DNA of 44,451 bases from Bdellovibrio sp. (GTDB lineage: Bacteria; Bdellovibrionota; Bdellovibrionia; Bdellovibrionales; Bdellovibrionaceae), in the NCBI GenBank assembly GCA_014376935.1, contig JACMQO010000162.1, forward strand, positions 1 through 44,451, read 5' to 3'. The notes beneath the pieces were generated by a model that worked only from the letters and a program-made list of their open reading frames with translations, had not been told where the DNA came from and ran no database searches. This document shows, in pieces, positions 6,421-33,185 of the stretch; positions within the stretch are counted from its first letter, which is position 1, and every line of letters starts with the position of its first letter. Made by a program: the position numbers and the translations under genes.

Positions 6421-7803
6421 TTACTCTATATTCTTTGACCATTTGGGCCTATAATAGTTATGAGAATCATTAGTGACACGGCGTTCTTCAGAACCATCAA
6501 TTGTCGAGATATAAACCTGGTTTTTACCCGTACGATTGCTTGTATAAACAACATAACGACTATCCGGAGAAAAGCTTGGATCTTCGTTGTGGGCCCATGT
6601 TCCATTCGCTTTTTTAGCCGTGGTGACGCGTACGATATTTGTTCCATCAGCGTTCATCACAAAAATATCAAAATGTTTTTTCTCGGACTGTCCGGCAAAC
6701 GCAATTTTTTTACCATCTGGCGACCAGCTTGGTGACGAGTTATATTCTCCATCCCAAGTTAAACGTTTTGCATTGGATCCATCACTATCCATTGTATAAA
6801 TCATCGGGCGGCCACCACGTTCAGATGAAAACGCGATTCTTGTGCCTTCAGGATTCAACGAAGGTTCAACGTTAATGGCGCCAGCCGGCCCAGTTGTTAA
6901 ACGCTTTATGATATCACCTGTTAAATTAATTCGGTAAATATCAGCGGCGCCAGAGCCCATCGACATTCCTAAGTAAATCGACTTTCCATCCGGAGAAAAA
7001 GTAGCACCTGAATTAATTCCGGGACGGTACGACGTTAAGGTTCTTTTAGCTGTTGTCATATCGTAAGTGTACAAACTGACGTTGGTCGTCGATCCCGCAC
7101 CTTTACGGATAAAAGTTGTAAAGACCGAATAGATGACTTTCTTTCCATCGGGCGACCAGTTCGGTGATAGCGCACTTGATTTATGGTTACTGATTTTTTC
7201 GATATCGCTGCCATCCCAGTTCATCGTGTAAACCTCTTTAGCTTGTCCGCCAGCGCGGTCGCTGGTTATCACAAGTTTCGACATGTAAGCGCCGCGAACG
7301 CCTGTCAAAGCTTCTAAAATATCATTCGCCATCGTGTGGCCGATTTGTCTAGAGGCCCCCATTGGAGCTTTGTATCTTTTGCCGACGACTAAATCTTTTT
7401 TCTCTACATCGTAAAGAAAGGATTCAACGATCAAATCGGGACCAATAACTGAATAGCCTGTGCGTAAGGCGTATTCCATTCCGGCCGTTTTTAAGGGTTC
7501 AAATTTAAATCCGTTTGATTCTTTACCGGTGGGTTTAATGCTGGTTTTCGAAGGATCTTCTAAAAATCCAGCGTTATCGACGATTTGAAAATATGTTGAA
7601 AGATTTAAATCATCTTTCAAAAGTTTATGAATATCAGCGGTGATCGCGGTGGCAGATCCCGTATTCGAAGATCCTAAATTATTAAAATATGCCAATCCCA
7701 AAACAGTTTTTTTAGCTTTAGCATCGCCAATTTTGATGTAAGAAGTCTGCGCATTCGCGCTTACCGAAATGAATAGCAAGAATGAGATTAAAAACTTGGT
7801 CAC
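6421..7803 (-). CDS. tolB: Tol-Pal system protein TolB
   Basis: A 460-residue periplasmic beta-propeller protein of the Tol-Pal envelope system. A GTG start at 7803 is chosen because AAAGGAG lies 6 bases upstream and it gives a normal signal peptide (FLISFLLFISVSANAQ, cleavage near 19). An upstream start would overlap the preceding gene without gaining a domain. The N-terminal domain (about 20-165) is followed by six-bladed WD40-like PD40 repeats, seen as repeated NWSPDGKK, TFSPDGKS, SWSPDGKK and SFSPDSRY motifs with intervening MNWDGSD, MDSDGSN and MNADGTN turns. It follows tolQ, tolR and tolA on the same strand. The usual next gene, pal, is absent here. Confidence 0.93.
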   Translation of the reverse strand: MTKFLISFLLFISVSANAQTSYIKIGDAKAKKTVLGLAYFNNLGSSNTGSATAITADIHKLLKDDLNLSTYFQIVDNAGFLEDPSKTSIKPTGKESNGFKFEPLKTAGMEYALRTGYSVIGPDLIVESFLYDVEKKDLVVGKRYKAPMGASRQIGHTMANDILEALTGVRGAYMSKLVITSDRAGGQAKEVYTMNWDGSDIEKISNHKSSALSPNWSPDGKKVIYSVFTTFIRKGAGSTTNVSLYTYDMTTAKRTLTSYRPGINSGATFSPDGKSIYLGMSMGSGAADIYRINLTGDIIKRLTTGPAGAINVEPSLNPEGTRIAFSSERGGRPMIYTMDSDGSNAKRLTWDGEYNSSPSWSPDGKKIAFAGQSEKKHFDIFVMNADGTNIVRVTTAKKANGTWAHNEDPSFSPDSRYVVYTSNRTGKNQVYISTIDGSEERRVTNDSHNYYRPKWSKNIE

Positions 7804-7822
7804 AATAAACTCCTTTGAAAAA

Positions 7823-8662
7823 TTACTCTGGAAAACCAATCAAGACGCCGTCACTTTTATATTTTTCTGAAAACTTTTCTGAAAACTTAGGAAATGGTTC
7901 TGCCTGCGTAATCGATTGTAAGCAGTAATCATCGTAAGCCTTAACGCCGCTGCTACTTTCGATCTGTTTTGATAAAATCTTACCGGTACTATCAAACTTA
8001 ACTAAGACGCGTGCTTTGTACGGTTTGTTAATTAACCACTGCGGCAAAGTCCAATATTGTTTGATGTGAGCGTCAAGTGTTTGTAAGTAAGCATCGGATT
8101 GAATTTTATCTAATCCTGTCAGTGAAGTTCCGGCTGAAATCACGCGACCTTTCATGACGGCTGCCACGGCATTTTTTCGCGCTTCTTCTTTTTGCATGTC
8201 TTCTTTAATTTTTTCGATCGCAGACTGCGCCTTTAATTTTTCAAGCGCATTTTTTTGCGTGGCCTTCACTTTTTTTAAATTAATCGCTTCAGTATCAACC
8301 TTAGGCTTCGGAAGTTCTTTTTTAGGAAGAACTACTTTGTCTTTCTTTTCGACCGGTACAGGTTTTTCATTTTTTGGTTCTGGTGTTGGTTCTTCAACAG
8401 GCTTAGGCGGTTCTTTTTCTTTCAGAACTTCTTGAACCTTTGCGGGCAGCTGATTTGAAGTCACCTTATCAGGTAACCCAATCATATCCACGCGAATGGC
8501 TTGCGTAATATCAATTGGGGGTTTCTTAAATAAATTTGTTTTTACCGTGAAAGTGATCACAAGTAAGACGTGCGCAATCACCGAGATCATAATTCCTTGC
8601 TTGAATTTTTTCTCGCGGATTTCTTTGTCTAAATTTTCGATCGGTAACTTTTCGGCTGCCAA
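7823..8662 (-). CDS. tolA: TolA/TonB-like energy-transducing envelope protein
   Basis: A 279-residue protein built like TolA or TonB: a short cytoplasmic start, one membrane anchor (about 22-40, GIMISVIAHVLLVITFTV), a Pro/Lys/Glu-rich periplasmic stretch (about 65-115), a helical segment (about 118-165) and a C-terminal TonB/TolA-type domain (about 180-279) with YLQTLDAHIKQYWTLP and a late PFPKF motif. It would transmit force from the TolQR motor to the outer-membrane side. Position between tolR and tolB argues for TolA rather than TonB. The start is 3 bases after tolR, and the gene ends 19 bases before the tolB start. Confidence 0.85.
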   Translation of the reverse strand: MAAEKLPIENLDKEIREKKFKQGIMISVIAHVLLVITFTVKTNLFKKPPIDITQAIRVDMIGLPDKVTSNQLPAKVQEVLKEKEPPKPVEEPTPEPKNEKPVPVEKKDKVVLPKKELPKPKVDTEAINLKKVKATQKNALEKLKAQSAIEKIKEDMQKEEARKNAVAAVMKGRVISAGTSLTGLDKIQSDAYLQTLDAHIKQYWTLPQWLINKPYKARVLVKFDSTGKILSKQIESSSGVKAYDDYCLQSITQAEPFPKFSEKFSEKYKSDGVLIGFPE

Positions 8663-8665
8663 ATA

Positions 8666-9085
8666 TTAATCCTTAGGTAGGGTAATTAAATTAATATTAA
8701 AAATTCCGGCCGCGCGGGCTTCTGCCATGGCTTCGGCAACGATGCCGTAGTCGACTTTACGGTCGGCTTGAATATAGATCTGTTTATTTTTTCTAGCGTC
8801 AAATATGGCTTTTAATTTATCTTTCATCTGCGTCATGCCAATTCCGATATCGCCGATCTTCATTTGGCCTTTACTATCAATGACTAAAATAAACGGATCT
8901 TCCTTTAAATCGATTCCAGAAGCGGCCGTTTTAGGTAAATTAACTTCTAATCCTTGCTGCATCATAGGTGCCGTGACCATAAAGATAACTAAAAGCACCA
9001 ACATCACATCGATGAAAGGGGTCACGTTGATTTCACTCATGACCATTTTTGATTTGCTGCTAGATTGGTTGGAATTCATTCCCAT
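8666..9085 (-). CDS. tolR: TolR/ExbD biopolymer transport protein
   Basis: A 139-residue protein of the ExbD/TolR family, the usual length. A cytoplasmic N-terminus is followed by INVTPFIDVMLVLLVIFMV, in which the Asp of the single membrane helix (about residue 27) is the proton-carrying residue of the family. The periplasmic domain then starts with the typical GLEVNLPKTA. It pairs with the TolQ-like protein upstream, 2 bases away, to form the proton-driven motor that energises TolA. Order and tight spacing support the Tol rather than the Exb assignment. Confidence 0.92.
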   Translation of the reverse strand: MGMNSNQSSSKSKMVMSEINVTPFIDVMLVLLVIFMVTAPMMQQGLEVNLPKTAASGIDLKEDPFILVIDSKGQMKIGDIGIGMTQMKDKLKAIFDARKNKQIYIQADRKVDYGIVAEAMAEARAAGIFNINLITLPKD

Positions 9086-9087
9086 AA

Positions 9088-9900
9088 CTAACCTTTAAAG
9101 AAATTGCGTTTAACGACGTTTAAAAAATCACCGGTAAAGTTATTCAAATCAATTTCTTCTTTGCGAATGACAGCGATACATTGATTGTAAATAATCACGG
9201 CCGGAATCGCGGCAAATAAACCGATCGCGGTAGCAATCAACGCTTCAGAAATTCCGGGTGCAACCACCGACAAGCTTGCAGAGCCGGTTTGGCCAATTTT
9301 ATGGAATGATCCCATAATACCCCAAACGGTTCCGAATAAACCGATGAATGGACCTGTTGATCCCGTCGAAGCCAAAATTGTTAAGCGTGATTCCATATCA
9401 GACATTTCGTTTTCAATAGTTTTTCTAGCAACGCGTTCTAAATTGTCGATTCCTGATAACTGCGGATTTTCGCCTTCTTTAGAGTGAGCGTTATTTAATA
9501 ACGGAGATTCAGCAATTTTTTTCATTTCTAAATACGCCGCTTTAAAAACGCGCGCGTGTGAACTTAAGGCATGTGTCGTGACCTTTTCGTACATGTCATC
9601 TAGCGAAGTCATTTTCCAAAACAACTGATCAAAAGATGCGTTGGCATGTTTCAAAGCTTTAAACTGTTTGTACTTAGACCAGCCTATGGCCCAGCTTAGA
9701 ATCGAAAGGCTTAATAAAATTAAAAGAACTAACTGAACAACAAAACTAGCTTGAAGCAATGATTCGATCGGACTGGCTCCTGATCCTACGTTGGTCGAGG
9801 TCGGGGGTGGGGCTGCATAGCTAAGTTGTGCTACGATAAGTGCTGAAGCCAATGCCGCTAAATTTTTTGTATTAAAAAGGAAATGTCTTTTGTTTTTCAT
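9088..9900 (-). CDS. tolQ: TolQ/ExbB-type proton channel protein with N-terminal extension
   Basis: A MotA/TolQ/ExbB channel protein, 270 residues from the ATG at 9900; a TTG start at 9936 would add 12 residues but is less likely. The first membrane helix proper lies at about 55-77 (SFVVQLVLLILLSLSILSW). The domain core near 190-245 holds TGPFIGLFGTVWGIMGSF and the fourth helix ALIATAIGLFAAIPAVI. An extra hydrophobic, signal-like segment (about 10-29, LAALASALIVAQLSYA) followed by a Pro/Ser/Thr-rich stretch precedes the first helix, which is unusual for E. coli TolQ but is known from longer ExbB forms. It is the first gene of the tol cluster. Confidence 0.88.
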   Translation of the reverse strand: MKNKRHFLFNTKNLAALASALIVAQLSYAAPPPTSTNVGSGASPIESLLQASFVVQLVLLILLSLSILSWAIGWSKYKQFKALKHANASFDQLFWKMTSLDDMYEKVTTHALSSHARVFKAAYLEMKKIAESPLLNNAHSKEGENPQLSGIDNLERVARKTIENEMSDMESRLTILASTGSTGPFIGLFGTVWGIMGSFHKIGQTGSASLSVVAPGISEALIATAIGLFAAIPAVIIYNQCIAVIRKEEIDLNNFTGDFLNVVKRNFFKG

Positions 9901-9937
9901 GTTTAAAAGCGTAAATCGAAACAAGACGTGCGGCAAG

Positions 9938-17705: not shown

Positions 17706-18308
17706 TTAATGAACGACCTTATTGATATCAATAGGGCCTTTTGATTCTGATTTACCCAGTTTGCCATTCACCTTAACTTCGTTGGCTTTAGATCTTTCAT
17801 ATTGCTGAACGACGTACTCGAAAGAATCTTCGGGACGTGAAGAAACTAAAGCTTCACGTTGAAACTTGGCATTTTCAACCTCTCCATTTAAAGAAAAGCT
17901 GATATAACTTTTTTTAACTTTGCTGTAGCCAGTGACTTTTAAAATGAGTTCTTGCGTTTGATTAGCGCCAAATTCGGGTAACACGCCGCTAACTTGGCTG
18001 TTGCCGATCAGCTGCACATCGGCCGGTAAATTCCAGGTGTAAGTTAACCCTGCTGGAATTGGCTTATAGGCCTGCAAACTGATTCTGATCGTCGATACAT
18101 CTGTATCTAGTAATGCGATATCAACATTCTTAATTTTTAAATCGATCAAGGTTTTTGAAAACTGCTCGGCCGCGATTTTAGACATTGTCATAGATGCTAA
18201 ATAGCGATGTGGAGAATTTCTGTTTTTAAAATAATCGACGGTGTTGTAACCAACGACAGCGCCGAACGAAATAGCTAATATTGAATTTAGTATGAATTTG
18301 CGGGACAT
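17706..18308 (-). CDS. Small exported partner protein B of the duplicated metalloprotease cassette
   Basis: A 200-residue protein with one N-terminal membrane or signal segment (about 5-22, FILNSILAISFGAVVGY) and a beta-rich exported domain. It is homologous to the 180-residue product at 20325-20867: both share an immunoglobulin-like beta pattern (a LTYTWNLP-type strand, a Gly-Val/Gln turn, then TGYS/TGFS, an ISFSLNGEVENAKF-type strand) and end with a motif ending SFEYVVQQYE or TFEDIVQNVE. It overlaps the upstream metalloprotease by 22 bases. No known family is recognised. A role as chaperone, inhibitor or substrate adaptor of the protease is speculation based on pairing. Confidence 0.72.
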   Translation of the reverse strand: MSRKFILNSILAISFGAVVGYNTVDYFKNRNSPHRYLASMTMSKIAAEQFSKTLIDLKIKNVDIALLDTDVSTIRISLQAYKPIPAGLTYTWNLPADVQLIGNSQVSGVLPEFGANQTQELILKVTGYSKVKKSYISFSLNGEVENAKFQREALVSSRPEDSFEYVVQQYERSKANEVKVNGKLGKSESKGPIDINKVVH

Positions 18309-20323
18309 AAAGACGCTCCAGATTGATTTGTTATAGTGTACGAGTATTCTGTGGTGCCTAAGACTGTTGTTTTCGCAGCGGTGTAAGCGCGTACATTTAG
18401 TAGATAATTATTGGCGGCAGATAGGCCAGCCAAGCTGATTATTTTAACTCCATTGCCCGCCGTGCGGTCGGCACGAACTATACTACTACTGCTAGAAACT
18501 TTTTGCGAAGCTAGGCAAGCGCCAGTGCCGGACGAAAACGAAGTACAGTCTTCATCATAATTATAACTTTCTCCGTAAAGAATCGCATCTACATCGATCC
18601 CCGTTGTTCCGGCCACGTAGGTTGAAGACACGCGAATCTCAGTTACGCCCGCTAAACTACCCAAAGCCACATAATAAAAATGATTCGAAAACCGTTGGTC
18701 TGATAAAAAGTTTGCGTTTAACCCGCTGTCTTGACGCGGCTGAATTTTTAAAAGGCAGGTCAAACCCGAAACTAATTTAATTCCGTAAGGCACCGCGACT
18801 CTGTTGCTACCAGCATCAACGTAGACCGAATTTGTTTCGCGCTGTTGGGCTTCGTCAGAATTTAAAATTGTATCAATCGCAGCCGGAGTTGAATTTGAAT
18901 ACGCCGCATTTAGACGACTATAAAAGCGAGCCGCGCTTCTAAAGGGATAATCGCTTTTTCCCATTCCAATTCCTGAAGTGTTATTTTCAAAAGCTTTCCA
19001 TATATATGAAAAGGCGGTATTTGCGCAGCCTGAGCAATTATTAGTTATTTTAAATAAGCTTCGAGAAATTGAAGTTTCTCGGAAGAGTCCTTCGCCAGGA
19101 TTCGTCGACGCATCCACTTTATCAAAGTAACGTGTTCCGTAATCAGTCATGATCGACTTGGGATTATTACCTGCCGTGTTCAAATCGATGCGTATATATT
19201 CTTTTCCAGACGATGATCCTGCGTCGGTGTAACCATCAGTATCTAGATAATAAAGCCATCCGCCAGATCCTGTGACTTGGGCTGATAAATCAGGATTGAT
19301 GTTTGCAATATTATTTCTAACTTGATGGGCACCAAAGTAGTTTCCCCATCCTTCAGACCAAGACAAGCGTGGATCGATACGGTAAAGGCCATAATGAGTT
19401 CCGCCTGGAGAATCCATTTTTCCACAGACATCTTCAACGTGATGACCTAGTTCATGAATAATAACGGTATCATCAAAGTGGTCGGTATCTTGAGAAGCCA
19501 CGTTACCTAATCGACCGCCATTAATAAATAATTGGTTGTCTCCTCGAACATAAAATGAAAGCGTTCCTAAAGTACTTGGATTTTGGTCAGGATAAACGTA
19601 CTGAGCCGGGTTAAATCCAGCTTTCCAATAAACATCTAATTTAGGATTTAGGCAGCGCAGATCAGAAGTCGACGTATTTTGCGCTAAGTAGTCGTACGTC
19701 GTTACAATATTATTTAAAATATTAAACGCACCACCATTAATAATCGAAGAATCAGATTCACGTGCGTAAGCGGTTAATGATGTTGAAACAGATCCACCAC
19801 TACCCGCAGAAGCGACGGTGCTTGATAAAATGTAAACCGTGTTGGCGTAAAGATCAGATTTTACCGAGGTATAAACCTTGAATGCTGTTTTGCCGCCGGG
19901 AACAGCGACAGTGTGATTTGTTCTTGATAACACCTGAACGGTGTAGCTGCCGCCCACATTTGGAATTGATAAACTTGATGTTCCATCTAATGCTTTGAGT
20001 GTGCCGGATGAATCGGTTTGTCCGCATTGCACGATGGTTCCCGAGCTATTTAAAACTCGAATTTCAGCGTACTTAATCGGAAGTGCCGTTGATATAGGAG
20101 CTCCCAAAACAATTGAAGTTACCGTTGCGCCTGATGAATTAACGATTAAGCCGCGCTTAAAGAAAAAGGCTGCTCCTGTCACGGTCACCGAAGGTGAATA
20201 CGATGTCGATGTGACACATTCTGCGATTTCGGCAGAAAGAGTAGGGTTGGTATCAATACCGGTCGCTAGCTTTGCGCAACTTGAAAAAATCATTATTAAA
20301 GGAACTATCTTGTAAATTTTCAT
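18287..20323 (-). CDS. Secreted metalloprotease-like lipoprotein B (HExxH)
   Basis: A 678-residue lipoprotein. The ATG at 20323 is preferred over 20356 because it gives a proper lipoprotein signal peptide (MKIYKIVPLIMIFSSC, Cys16) and starts one base after the preceding stop. An N-terminal domain (about 50-165) is like a carboxypeptidase-regulatory beta domain. The protease centre is VIIHELGHHVED (zinc ligands His290 and His294, catalytic Glu291), followed by SWSEGWGN, whose Glu324 could be the third zinc ligand as in gluzincins. The C-terminal half is predicted beta-rich (about 480-678). It is paralogous to the gene at 20858, with identical HExxH-to-Glu spacing. Substrate and exact peptidase family are unknown. 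Confidence 0.75.
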   Translation of the reverse strand: MKIYKIVPLIMIFSSCAKLATGIDTNPTLSAEIAECVTSTSYSPSVTVTGAAFFFKRGLIVNSSGATVTSIVLGAPISTALPIKYAEIRVLNSSGTIVQCGQTDSSGTLKALDGTSSLSIPNVGGSYTVQVLSRTNHTVAVPGGKTAFKVYTSVKSDLYANTVYILSSTVASAGSGGSVSTSLTAYARESDSSIINGGAFNILNNIVTTYDYLAQNTSTSDLRCLNPKLDVYWKAGFNPAQYVYPDQNPSTLGTLSFYVRGDNQLFINGGRLGNVASQDTDHFDDTVIIHELGHHVEDVCGKMDSPGGTHYGLYRIDPRLSWSEGWGNYFGAHQVRNNIANINPDLSAQVTGSGGWLYYLDTDGYTDAGSSSGKEYIRIDLNTAGNNPKSIMTDYGTRYFDKVDASTNPGEGLFRETSISRSLFKITNNCSGCANTAFSYIWKAFENNTSGIGMGKSDYPFRSAARFYSRLNAAYSNSTPAAIDTILNSDEAQQRETNSVYVDAGSNRVAVPYGIKLVSGLTCLLKIQPRQDSGLNANFLSDQRFSNHFYYVALGSLAGVTEIRVSSTYVAGTTGIDVDAILYGESYNYDEDCTSFSSGTGACLASQKVSSSSSIVRADRTAGNGVKIISLAGLSAANNYLLNVRAYTAAKTTVLGTTEYSYTITNQSGASLCPANSY

Positions 20324-20324
20324 G

Positions 20325-20867
20325 CTAATTGTCTTCTTCTTGCGATTTCGCCGCACGAATTTTTTCTACGTTCTGTACGATATCCTCAAAGGTGCTTTCT
20401 TTCTGAGAAGCGATAATGCCGTCAGCAAAAACGCGACGTCCGTTTTTAAAACCCGAGACCTGAAATATAATTTGTCGATTGGCGACCGTGCTAAATCCAG
20501 TGACCGAAATTTCGACGGTGATCGAATGTTTGGCCTTCAGGTTTTTAATTTGGCCGTTCAATTGGCCTTCTTTAATTTGGATGTTTTCGGTTAAAATCCA
20601 TTTGTAATCTAAGTTTTCATCAAAATCGAAAGGCATTGAGATTTGTGTTCTTATTTTTACGACATCTTTATCGTTTTTTGCCACTTCATCTTCTTTAATC
20701 TTGATATTTATAACGCGATCAACGGGGCCGTAGCCCGTAAATTCTGATGTCGGCACGTTGAAGGAAATTGGCTTATTGGCTTCAGCAGTAGGAATAAATA
20801 GGTAACAATATCCTGCACTGGTGAATACAACGAATAATGAGGCTAAGACTAATTTTTTTAAAGACAT
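20325..20867 (-). CDS. Small exported partner protein A of the duplicated metalloprotease cassette
   Basis: A 180-residue protein with a signal peptide (about 5-28, LVLASLFVVFTSAGYCYLF) and a beta-rich domain. It resembles the 200-residue product at 17706-18308 in length, topology and C-terminal ending, so the two are paralogues. It overlaps the end of the upstream metalloprotease by 10 bases and is followed after one base by the second metalloprotease. The C-terminal tail is charged (AAKSQEEDN). Function is unknown and no family was recognised. The coupling to a protease gene, repeated twice, suggests a shared task. Confidence 0.72.
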   Translation of the reverse strand: MSLKKLVLASLFVVFTSAGYCYLFIPTAEANKPISFNVPTSEFTGYGPVDRVINIKIKEDEVAKNDKDVVKIRTQISMPFDFDENLDYKWILTENIQIKEGQLNGQIKNLKAKHSITVEISVTGFSTVANRQIIFQVSGFKNGRRVFADGIIASQKESTFEDIVQNVEKIRAAKSQEEDN

Positions 20868-22948
20868 ATATAATTTCCCGATTGATCTTTAATTTCGTAC
20901 TTGTAGCTTGTCGTCGAAGAAAAGGTTTTGGCAGGTGTGTACGCTCTTATATTTAGTAAATAGCGTTGGGTGTGATCTAGGCTTTGTAAATTGGCTATTT
21001 TTTTAGTTGTAATCGTCGATCCCGGACGGCGATCGTACCTGACAACATCACTAGTAACCGTTCGACTGGGTTGCCAAGTCGTCAAACAATTTCCATTTGA
21101 ATCAGAAGACGAACAACTGTAATCAATATTAAAAACATAATTTTCTTTGAATAATAGTAAGTCAAACTCGGTCGCTGTACCAACTTGCGAACTGAACGTA
21201 ATGTTAATCTCGCTCACGTTCGGCAATAATGATAAGTCTAATGTTAAATACTGATTTGAATAACGTTGGTCTGAATTTGTACCTGCTAGAACAGGGTCGT
21301 CTGATCTTGGTTCAATATATAAATTACCGCTAGCGCACGCCGTGGCGCTGGTACTTGCTAAGTAGGTTCCATATGGCACCCATTTGTTATTTCCACCAGA
21401 TGAATAAGAGCCATCCGAAAATAAATGCAAGGCTTCGGTTTGAGTTTTCGTTAAGTTATCGCCGCTCCATGAACTGCCTAAAATACTTTTTACATTTTCT
21501 AAAACGTCATGCGAACTTTTAAAAGTAAAAGTACTTTTACCAACACCCGTGATTCTATCGATTGATTTCCAAATCGTTTCGAAAGCAACTGGGGATGCTG
21601 CACAAGTTGTTCCGCAGCCGTTTGTTAACTTAAAGAATCCTCTGGAAATGGCGCCTTCGCGAAAATGTCCTTCACCGGGGTAACTTGTACCGCTGACTTT
21701 ATCAAAATAGCTTCCAGTGTAAGTTCCTGTTTGCCAAGTATCAGGATTGCTTCCTGCTTTTTTTAGATCAAACATAAATCCTGTGCCATTGTTAATATTT
21801 AAAACAGAATCTGAAAATCCGATGGTACTGCTAAAGTAAGTCCACGCCGTCGGCAAACCTTGCGCTGTCATTTTCGCGGCGAATTCAGGATTAATTTCGC
21901 CAATAGAATTATACATTACCTGACCAGCTAAAAAATTTGACCAACCTTCTGACCAAGCTAGGCGCGGATCGATCCGCGAAACAAGCGCATGTGTTCCGCC
22001 AGGACTGGTTAATTGTCCGCAGTTATCTTCGATAAAGTGGCCTAACTCATGAATAATAACGTAGTCGTCGAAGTGATCTGTATTTTCAACACTGGTATTT
22101 CCTAAACGGCCACCGCTGATATTTAAGGTCTTATCGCCCGCACCATTATAATAAGAAGTATTGGGTAGGTAACTTGGATCTGCGCTTGGACTTAAATACT
22201 GATAAGGATTAAATCCAGCTTTCCAATAAGTTTCTATTTTATTATTCAAACATGTCGCATCGACCGTGCCGGTATGAGAGCTTAAATATTTATAAGTGGT
22301 GTAGATACTGTTTAAAATATTAAAAGCTCCGCCGGCCATTTCAATATCGTCAGTTTGTCTAGCGTAAGCGATAAGCTCTAGTCCTATTCCATCAATGCCG
22401 TTTGAATAAGATGTTGAAATTAATTTATGAACTTTATTGGTGTACTTATCTTTTTTAATCGAAACGTGTAGCGTCGTTGTTGGCTTCGAGGCGACAACAA
22501 AATCAGTATTTATTCTAGCTAATACTTGCACGATGTAGTTGCCTGCGGTTTTAGGAATTTTTAAATCACCTGCTCCGTCCAGCGCCTTTAAGTTTCCAGA
22601 AGCGTCGGTGACCCCGCACTGAACAATTTGATTGGTTGAATTATAAACGATGACTTCAGCTAAACGAATTGGAAGGGCCGCGGCTAGCGGATCACCTAAG
22701 GTTAAATTTTTAAGTTCGTTAGCACCTAAAGTATTGTTGTACTGAGTGATCGGAACTACGCCGCGTTTAAAAAACTTTGCGGTTCCGGTGACGCTAACAC
22801 TGGTTGCGTAATTATAACTGGTTAAGCATTCGGGTTCTTCTACAGAAGTGGATAAGTATTCGTAATACTGAGAATTCTTGATGCCGGTACAAGCCGACAT
22901 CAGATATAAAAAGGGCAATAAATAGAGTAAGCGAACGATTGGATTCAC
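20858..22948 (-). CDS. Secreted metalloprotease-like lipoprotein A (HExxH)
   Basis: A 696-residue lipoprotein, first gene of the four-gene operon. The GTG start gives MNPIVRLLYLLPFLYLMSAC with lipid-modified Cys20, although no clear Shine-Dalgarno is seen. A beta-type N-terminal domain (about 52-160) leads to the zinc motif VIIHELGHFIED (His300, Glu301, His304) and then AWSEGWSN with Glu334, the same 30-residue spacing as in its paralogue B. Nearby shared strings are DHFDD, SPGGTH and RIDPRL. The C-terminal domain (about 500-696) is beta-rich with a calcium-like acidic patch. It is anchored to the outer or inner membrane by lipid, with protease domain outside the cytoplasm. Substrate unknown. 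Confidence 0.76.
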   Translation of the reverse strand: MNPIVRLLYLLPFLYLMSACTGIKNSQYYEYLSTSVEEPECLTSYNYATSVSVTGTAKFFKRGVVPITQYNNTLGANELKNLTLGDPLAAALPIRLAEVIVYNSTNQIVQCGVTDASGNLKALDGAGDLKIPKTAGNYIVQVLARINTDFVVASKPTTTLHVSIKKDKYTNKVHKLISTSYSNGIDGIGLELIAYARQTDDIEMAGGAFNILNSIYTTYKYLSSHTGTVDATCLNNKIETYWKAGFNPYQYLSPSADPSYLPNTSYYNGAGDKTLNISGGRLGNTSVENTDHFDDYVIIHELGHFIEDNCGQLTSPGGTHALVSRIDPRLAWSEGWSNFLAGQVMYNSIGEINPEFAAKMTAQGLPTAWTYFSSTIGFSDSVLNINNGTGFMFDLKKAGSNPDTWQTGTYTGSYFDKVSGTSYPGEGHFREGAISRGFFKLTNGCGTTCAASPVAFETIWKSIDRITGVGKSTFTFKSSHDVLENVKSILGSSWSGDNLTKTQTEALHLFSDGSYSSGGNNKWVPYGTYLASTSATACASGNLYIEPRSDDPVLAGTNSDQRYSNQYLTLDLSLLPNVSEINITFSSQVGTATEFDLLLFKENYVFNIDYSCSSSDSNGNCLTTWQPSRTVTSDVVRYDRRPGSTITTKKIANLQSLDHTQRYLLNIRAYTPAKTFSSTTSYKYEIKDQSGNYICL

Positions 22949-30912: not shown

Positions 30913-32520
30913 GTGAAAGATTTTTCTTTTCAAACACGAGCTGAAAATTTAAAAAGACTTAAAACTGAAAAGTTCGATATTGTCATTATTGGTGGCGGTA
31001 TCACAGGCGCGGGCGTAGCCCGGGATGCGGCGTTACGCGGTCTTAAAGTGGCATTAGTTGAAATGCACGACTACGCGTTCGGCACATCATCTAGATCCAG
31101 TAAACTAATCCACGGCGGAATTCGCTATTTAGAAAATTTTGAATTTCATTTGGTCTTCGAAGCTCTGAACGAAAGAACGAAGCTTTTTCAAATGACGCCC
31201 CATTTAGTACACCCATTGCGATTTATGATTCCAATTTTTGAAGACAGCCGCGTGGGTATGTTTAAAATGGGTTTAGGGATGATGTTATACGATGCTTTAG
31301 CCTTATTCCGTGCCCCTGAAATGCATGAACGATTAAATTCAAAAGCCACTGTCGATCGCATGCCAGTTATCAAAAGTTCTAACCTAGTTGGTTCGTATGT
31401 TTATTCAGACGCATATATGGATGACGATCGTTTGGTGCACGAAACCTTACGCTCAGCCCACGAGGCCGGTGCGGTTTGCGTGAACTACACAAAAGTTATG
31501 AAATCAAAAATGGAAAATGAAAAAGTCGTCGGACTTGAAGTTCTAGATTTAATTTCTAAAGAAAATTTTGTTGTTCAAGCTGACCAGGTGGTTTGTACTG
31601 TGGGCCCATGGTCTGATTTAGTCGGAGAAAAAATGGTTTCTGATTGGAAACGGATTTTACGTCCAACAAAAGGTATACATTTAACATTTCATAAAAATAG
31701 ACTGCCGTTGACAAGCGCCGTTGTTATGGGTGCACAAGAAAGTAATCGCATTGTGTTTGCAATTCCGCGCCACGAAATGATTATCGTCGGCACAACCGAC
31801 ACCGATTTTGAAGGTAATCCCGAATTGGCTTCAGTCACTGCCGAAGATGTAAAATACTTATTAAAAATAACGAATGAATATTTTCCCGGGGCTGAACTCA
31901 CTGCTAAAGACATCTTATCAAGTTACGTCGGAGTTCGTCCTTTAGTTAAAGATGACTCGGCAAACGAAAACAAAACAAGTCGCGAACACACGATCATTTC
32001 AGATCCGCGCGGATTTACCTTCGTCGCAGGCGGAAAATATACGACATACCGATTGATGTCGGAACAAATCGTTGATCTAGTGATTAAGCATTGGCCGTTT
32101 GAAAAGAAATTGAGTTTAAATAAATGCCAAACGACTGAGCCTTTAAATAAATTTACATCACCTGAAGCCTACACAAAAGCTCAAGCCGATGCTGGATCAA
32201 ATGCTGACTTAAAGTGGTTAGCAGATCGTTACGGCGAAGAGGCATTTGAAATCAAAAATAAATTTGGAGCTAACTTATCCGTTTGGCAGCTGGAAGCTTA
32301 CCAAGCTATTCGTAAAACGATGTGTTTAAGTTTAATCGATTTTTACACGCGCCGAGTTCCGTTAGTATTAGCCTATCAAGATCACGGATTGAATTTATTA
32401 GACAGTATCGCTGAAATATTTAAAGCCGAACTGAAATGGTCTGATCAAGAGTTTGAGAATCAAAAGCTAACGCTTGTTAATTACATCGATAGCGAATTAA
32501 GTTGGCGCAAAGATTTCTAG
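30913..32520 (+). CDS. glpD: Aerobic glycerol-3-phosphate dehydrogenase
   Basis: A 535-residue FAD-dependent GlpD, close to the family's usual length. The dinucleotide-binding motif is DIVIIGGGITGAGVARDAAL (about 23-42), followed by SSRSSKLIHGGIRYLENFEF, the FAD/G3P DAO-domain signature. It carries TVGPWSD and a VGVRPLV region, then the C-terminal cap. It oxidises sn-glycerol 3-phosphate to dihydroxyacetone phosphate, passing electrons to the quinone pool at the inner membrane. The start is GTG at 30913 with a weak ribosome site. Its stop overlaps the convergent transposase-like gene by 4 bases. Confidence 0.94.
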   Translation: MKDFSFQTRAENLKRLKTEKFDIVIIGGGITGAGVARDAALRGLKVALVEMHDYAFGTSSRSSKLIHGGIRYLENFEFHLVFEALNERTKLFQMTPHLVHPLRFMIPIFEDSRVGMFKMGLGMMLYDALALFRAPEMHERLNSKATVDRMPVIKSSNLVGSYVYSDAYMDDDRLVHETLRSAHEAGAVCVNYTKVMKSKMENEKVVGLEVLDLISKENFVVQADQVVCTVGPWSDLVGEKMVSDWKRILRPTKGIHLTFHKNRLPLTSAVVMGAQESNRIVFAIPRHEMIIVGTTDTDFEGNPELASVTAEDVKYLLKITNEYFPGAELTAKDILSSYVGVRPLVKDDSANENKTSREHTIISDPRGFTFVAGGKYTTYRLMSEQIVDLVIKHWPFEKKLSLNKCQTTEPLNKFTSPEAYTKAQADAGSNADLKWLADRYGEEAFEIKNKFGANLSVWQLEAYQAIRKTMCLSLIDFYTRRVPLVLAYQDHGLNLLDSIAEIFKAELKWSDQEFENQKLTLVNYIDSELSWRKDF

Positions 32521-33044
32521 AAATAGTTATTTTGCTCTATCAATTTTGATAGTTTGAATTGCACATCCGTATTAAGCCACGTTAAAACATGATACGGATT
32601 TTGGATCAGTTTTAATTTATCTGAAATAAGGCAGTGACCTTGAGAATACCCCAGTAAAAATCTTAAAGAGCTGAATGGGTAGTCTTCAACATTCTGAATG
32701 AGTCCCGCCTGAACGGGATTATTATATATGTACTTATAGGCATTTAAATACTGCGCCACACTTTCGATAGGTTCGCAATCGCTGTTAATTTTTCTTAATC
32801 CATTTAATTTTTCATGCACCGAAACACTAAAAAAGTTCTCATTTTTTGCACGGCTTTCGATTAAAAGATGAAAATGAGTATCCATCATGACTAAAGCCTG
32901 AAGTTCGATATCGTGAACTTTCGCCTGTTGAAATAGTACTTTTTGTAATCGTATCCAATCTAATTCTTTAAAGTATCCAGTAACTTCGAACTCCATGTTC
33001 AAGTGAAAAAAAGTGCTAGATTTTTTAAAATTGCTTGGTCTCAT
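32517..33044 (-). CDS. Orphan Y1/RAYT-like transposase (REP-associated tyrosine transposase family)
   Basis: A 175-residue protein from ATG 33044. The metal-binding HUH motif is MDTHFHLLIES (His-x-His), and the nucleophilic Tyr is expected in NAYKYIYNNPVQAGL, a typical IS200/RAYT pair. These proteins act on single-stranded REP or IS hairpins. No IS200 partner gene, no flanking direct repeat and no obvious REP array are seen, so it looks like a single-copy domesticated form. A TTG at 33062 would extend it by 6 residues. A GC-rich imperfect palindrome lies nearby at 33094-33128. Confidence 0.78.
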   Translation of the reverse strand: MRPSNFKKSSTFFHLNMEFEVTGYFKELDWIRLQKVLFQQAKVHDIELQALVMMDTHFHLLIESRAKNENFFSVSVHEKLNGLRKINSDCEPIESVAQYLNAYKYIYNNPVQAGLIQNVEDYPFSSLRFLLGYSQGHCLISDKLKLIQNPYHVLTWLNTDVQFKLSKLIEQNNYF

Positions 33045-33185
33045 GACGATTGTTAAAAGCAAAGAAGTGCCAAGCTTCAGTTAGAATAAACTGGTCGCAG
33101 ACGGCTAGACCTAGGCCGGGATCCGACTTTGCTTTTTCAAAAAACACACGTCAAACTCTTATAAAACCGTTCCTGAGGAGGAAAC

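Follow-up and report, generated by a model that had tools for sequence, protein, structure and literature searches.

We interpret two adjacent gene pairs from a Bdellovibrio sp. as paralogous versions of an exported metalloprotease in two parts, the protease itself and a small partner protein that acts on it in the periplasm. On the sequence comparisons and predicted structures described below, we put the probability of this reading at about 0.65. The analysed stretch of DNA (44,451 nucleotides, referred to as the window) lies on contig 100 in a draft genome of 3.27 Mb. The initial annotation had described four overlapping or abutting minus-strand genes in the order protease, partner, protease, partner, and the list of open reading frames bears this out, with four minus-strand ORFs filling positions 17706-22948:

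20858-22948, minus strand: pair 1 protease, 696 aa; predicted lipoprotein (Cys20) with a TTR/CarboxypepD_reg-like domain at about residues 86-150, a gluzincin core (H300, E301, H304 and E334) and a PPC-like C-terminal beta domain; based on the ORF, an alignment of 35 relatives and the domain matches of relatives.
20325-20867, minus strand: pair 1 partner, 180 aa; predicted exported beta-sandwich (Ig/adaptin-ear-like) with a hydrophobic N-terminal helix at residues 3-23; based on the ORF, the predicted structure and Foldseek.
18287-20323, minus strand: pair 2 protease; paralogue of the pair 1 protease, with motifs and domain order as in pair 1.
17706-18308, minus strand: pair 2 partner, 200 aa; paralogue of the pair 1 partner.

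In both pairs the start of the partner gene overlaps the end of the protease gene, by 10 bp in pair 1 and by 22 bp in pair 2. The longest ORF of the pair 2 protease begins with a GTG at 20356, inside partner 1. An ATG at 20323, one base past the partner 1 stop, opens a normal lipoprotein signal (MKIYKIVPLIMIFSSC), and because of this clean signal and its position after the stop codon the ATG is the likelier start, so that the pair 2 protease is probably a protein of 678 aa. The two proteases are identical at 295 of 673 positions (44%, E 1e-162). Both carry HELGH, DHFDD, SPGGTH, RIDPRL, SEGW and the lipobox Cys, in agreement with the common strings and lipobox reported before, and the equal motif spacing was likewise recovered, the Glu standing 30 positions past the last His of HELGH (29 residues between). 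The two partners share 35 of 122 residues (29%, E 2e-14), which is far beyond chance, and on this alignment they appear weakly but clearly related; the proposal of a duplicated pair would have suffered had the partners been unrelated to each other. Each window partner has an N-terminal hydrophobic segment that lacks a lipobox. A search of the source genome found no third copy of the pair.

The association of the two genes extends far beyond the window. In a single-sequence search the protease was detected in 117/141 genomes of the order, and it is present in 111 of the 130 genomes of the class with a completeness of at least 80%. The partner was found in 112/141 genomes of the order and nearly always adjoins the protease. 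An overlap of 10-29 bp is seen in 54 of 58 pairs, compared with 69 of 439 other same-strand neighbours that were called with the same naive starts as the pairs. We also tallied by hand those fetched loci of the class that show the protease gene end and the downstream sequence. The partner was recognised by its profile at about 65 of them; the rest comprise two fusions, three f7 paralogues with a diverged partner, four loci with a small exported downstream ORF that is not recognisable as partner by profile, and one locus (L079) without a partner. The partner match in G090 (L085) was circular, its sequence being part of the alignment, and was counted as unrecognised. L079 (1341-2876) is a second protease copy in G127 that has neither HExxH nor a partner gene and is apparently a decayed copy. 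The paralogues at L073, L075 and L077, which look solitary, were considered as counter-examples and rejected, as each has a diverged partner. Frequent solitary homologues had been named as grounds for giving up the proposal, and homologues of the protease hardly ever lack a partner gene.

Throughout most of the order the pair lies beside sufS/nifU, with xseA (family f1) or ftsE/ctpA (other families) on the other flank. Since the pair is thus mostly found at one conserved locus, its adjacency within the order does not amount to many independent observations, and this single syntenic location is what one would expect if the genes were mere neighbours in an old operon, without any functional contact. 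We nevertheless regard such a coincidence as very unlikely: the two proteins were fused and the fusion was kept while about half of the residues changed, both genes were lost together, they were retained together in other classes, and they were duplicated jointly with both partners kept. The fusion occurs in two genomes of 1.2-1.3 Mb from one genus (G095, locus L089; G096, locus L131), in which the partner domain, minus its membrane segment, continues the frame of the protease at the C-terminus and no partner gene follows downstream. It was detected with a partner profile built without protease sequences. Identity between the two fused proteins is 52% over the protease portion and 44% over the partner portion; because they differ at about 48% and 56% of positions, an assembly error can be dismissed and the fusion has persisted for a long time.

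Joint loss is seen in five genomes of a Bdellovibrio-like genus, g4 (G014, G017, G019, G024 and G026), which have neither the protease nor the partner; in the nifU-xseA interval of these genomes neither gene was found. A 196-aa ORF in this interval was considered as a flipped partner and rejected, its match reaching 8.4% at most. An unrelated small exported Lys/Ala-rich protein is encoded between nifU and xseA in pair-less Bdellovibrio (L183 1159-1749, L184 1130-1720, L186 1056-1673).

In each of two trees, one with 62 proteases and one with 62 partners, a single change separates pair 1 from pair 2 with full support, and in both trees the pair 1 and pair 2 sets fall inside one genus clade. A single joint duplication at the base of the genus, before its radiation, would explain both trees; where exactly the duplication is rooted is less certain, because the protease tree places pair 1 inside pair 2. 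Both copies are kept in all genus members that could be read, and the pair is single elsewhere. All catalytic residues are conserved in both copies of the aligned genus members, and the two copies probably cleave different substrates or serve under different conditions. The initial annotation had concluded from the duplication that each protease depends on a partner of its own. Joint duplication and the retention of the own partner stand, but duplication alone is no proof of such a need; the stronger evidence comes from the fusion and the co-loss. Overall, protease and partner very probably work as a unit, and an obligate two-part envelope protease is a well supported interpretation of these patterns.

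Diverged pairs are present in further classes of the phylum as well. In family f26, from another class or order, a small exported protein is encoded -29 to +38 bp after a diverged protease, and the profile of these small proteins matched the partner profile with 91.9% probability. Unrelated single window proteins used as controls reached 2.2% or less, a contrast that is somewhat favourable as single sequences were set against a profile-based test. The partners of the f7 paralogues matched the f26 profile with 98.2%, and the small proteins downstream of f12 proteases scored 95.2% against f26 and 86.1% against the class partner. At one f26 locus, another small exported ORF (L125 6063-6644) overlaps the partner gene at its end. 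Protease homologues were also found on two Burkholderiales plasmids (L198 2098-3852, NC_010553.1; L199 2158-4370, CP099603.1), where they are annotated as hypothetical protein. On the Comamonadaceae plasmid, a 176-aa gene overlaps the end of the homologue by 4 bp and weakly matches the f26 partner (35.6%). The homologue on the Burkholderia plasmid is without an ORF of this kind, and its catalytic Glu motif is lost (SDSGN in place of SEGWGN). Catalytic residues are decayed in both partner-less copies seen, namely HExxH in the second copy of G127 and the Glu motif on the Burkholderia plasmid. That the pairs represent an old and so far undescribed family of exported metalloproteases in two parts, with an obligate separate Ig-like subunit, spread over several Bdellovibrionota classes and possibly beyond, is a proposition for which we see the odds as evenly balanced.

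Neither protein family had been recognised in the initial annotation, and the window proteases and partners indeed remain below every Pfam and NCBIfam cut-off. A sequence search of the PDB gave no family membership for the window proteins, the Pfam scan gave no match of them to M36 (PF02128), a search of IMG/VR returned no relatives, and the only match in a single-sequence contig scan was a genus member. In the alignment of 35 protease relatives, the lipobox Cys20 is invariant (35/35), so that the protease has the signal ending in a lipobox Cys that marks bacterial lipoproteins, and further invariant positions are H300, E301, H304, G317, G318, H320, D327, R329 and E334. The consensus reads DTDHFDxSVIxHEYGHFLED...SPGGxH...IDPRLAWSEGWANFF. 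Of 92 family proteins, 91 contain HExxH, with an equally spaced Glu in essentially all 91; the regular expression overlooked five proteins that plainly carry it. In one-by-one scans of the 35 relatives, 24 contain a CarboxypepD_reg domain (best E 1e-8), four a PPC domain (best E 7.5e-7) and three a weak match to fungalysin M36 (E up to 0.1). The family profile aligned co-linearly with the fungalysin 7qfy_A at HExxH, at EGW and along a later segment, although with an E-value of 0.55. When the Pfam M36 model was run over 60 genomes, it found the family loci in G073, G076, G078, G080 and G087 with E-values of 7e-5 to 1e-3; all five matches are below the cut-off, and the model also picked other proteins.

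The protease shares with the fungalysins (M36, clan MA(E)) the HExxH with a downstream Glu within an EGW motif and the co-linear core match to 7qfy_A, but does not reach the Pfam gathering cut-off of M36. Unlike the fungalysins, the family consists of lipoproteins with TTR-like and PPC-like domains, has 29 residues between the last His and the Glu with an invariant GGxH motif among them, and is accompanied by a separate gene for an Ig-like partner. It also differs in that an FTP/PepSY propeptide was absent among the matches of the window proteins to E 1 and among the 25 families listed out of 28 matched by the 35 relatives. We read the protease as having a gluzincin-type core that is probably nearest to M36, outside M36 itself. 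The predicted structure places helices at residues 294-309 and 328-346 around the motifs, but this model, made from a four-row alignment, is unreliable (mean pLDDT 41.8) and too poor for a fold search.

Partner 1 of the window is predicted to form a beta-sandwich with a core pLDDT of about 80-88, and its nearest Foldseek matches in the PDB are adaptin ear domains (E 2e-4), with modest TM scores of about 0.4 (query) and 0.55 (target). Among 33 partner relatives, seven gave weak domain matches to PKD_6 and five to bMG10. W90 is nearly invariant in the partner family. The partner thus has an Ig-like beta-sandwich at the level of the fold only: its core resembles adaptin ear, PKD-like and alpha-2-macroglobulin bMG10 Ig-fold domains without sequence membership in any of them. 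A lipobox closes the hydrophobic segment in several of the genus's pair 1 partners and in L085, L090, L115 and L116, and partners of families f26 and f12 sometimes have an ordinary cleavable signal, as judged by eye.

Newly made fungalysins carry an N-terminal FTP/PepSY propeptide, which folds the enzyme and restrains it. Given this known function and the fact that no such propeptide was found here, we propose that the partner takes the place of the propeptide, most likely as a dedicated folding/holding and anchoring subunit that would act in trans, or in cis when fused. In the proposed mechanism, the large subunit would be a Sec-exported, lipid-anchored zinc protease of the gluzincin type, with TTR-like and PPC-like domains flanking the core. 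The small subunit would be an Ig-like beta-sandwich that is likewise exported by Sec and is anchored usually by its hydrophobic N-terminal segment, in some lineages by a lipid. Its translation would be coupled to that of the protease gene end, and it would bind the putatively active protease and act on it in the periplasm.

The main rival reading takes the partner for an inhibitor or immunity protein that silences the protease until it reaches the cell surface or its target. Serralysins and their Inh proteins (I38) provide the precedent, an exported metalloprotease encoded beside a small exported beta-rich protein, and the window pairs resemble them in this arrangement; co-expression through the gene overlap and co-loss would fit an inhibitor as well. 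However, the permanent fusion in G095 and G096 and the frequent membrane anchor are less easily reconciled with a dissociable inhibitor, and none of the 33 partners matched Inh/I38 or another Pfam inhibitor family. The likeness to serralysin/Inh is further limited in that many partners are anchored in the membrane and those of one genus are fused to their protease, and in that the domain scans of the protease gave no RTX repeats. We thus consider an inhibitor unlikely and prefer the folding, holding and anchoring subunit.

A link to predation, which the initial annotation had raised, is not supported by the distribution. A weapon for prey attachment, entry or envelope digestion would agree with the near-universal presence of the pair in a predator-rich class and with its duplication in a genus that, as we assign the taxon, contains the epibiotic predator P. 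exovorus. On the other hand, the pair is absent from three complete genomes that we take as Bdellovibrio KM01, ZAP7 and SKB1291214, strains listed among obligate predators (PMC11656739); if the strains are rightly identified, the pair is dispensable for predation in them. It is also present in many lineages that are not known to prey, including those with 1.2 Mb genomes, and its locus (suf/nifU with xseA or ftsE/ctpA) is a housekeeping one. A predatory function is accordingly improbable in our view.

In the genome that we take as B. bacteriovorus HD100, the pair is located at about 177.9-180.4 kb. Counting between the published tags for Fe-S assembly (Bd0187/Bd0188; PMC2797640) and xseA (Bd0197; PMC3593177), it should correspond to about Bd0193/Bd0194, and the Bdellovibrio paper texts searched make no mention of Bd0189 to Bd0196. 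If the two-part reading is true, a dedicated second subunit belongs to a widespread envelope protease that HD100 possesses but that the papers searched neither name nor study, and any assay would need both proteins expressed together. It would offer a testable target in a group with a large, mostly unassigned set of proteases, and an unusual, propeptide-free control of a fungalysin-like enzyme. The natural fusion should ease structure determination.

Elsewhere in the window, by eye only, an apparent tolQ-tolR-tolA-tolB-like envelope gene cluster lies at 6421-9936 (minus strand), and a 181-aa ORF at 32517-33062 (minus strand) resembles a REP-associated (Y1-type) transposase.
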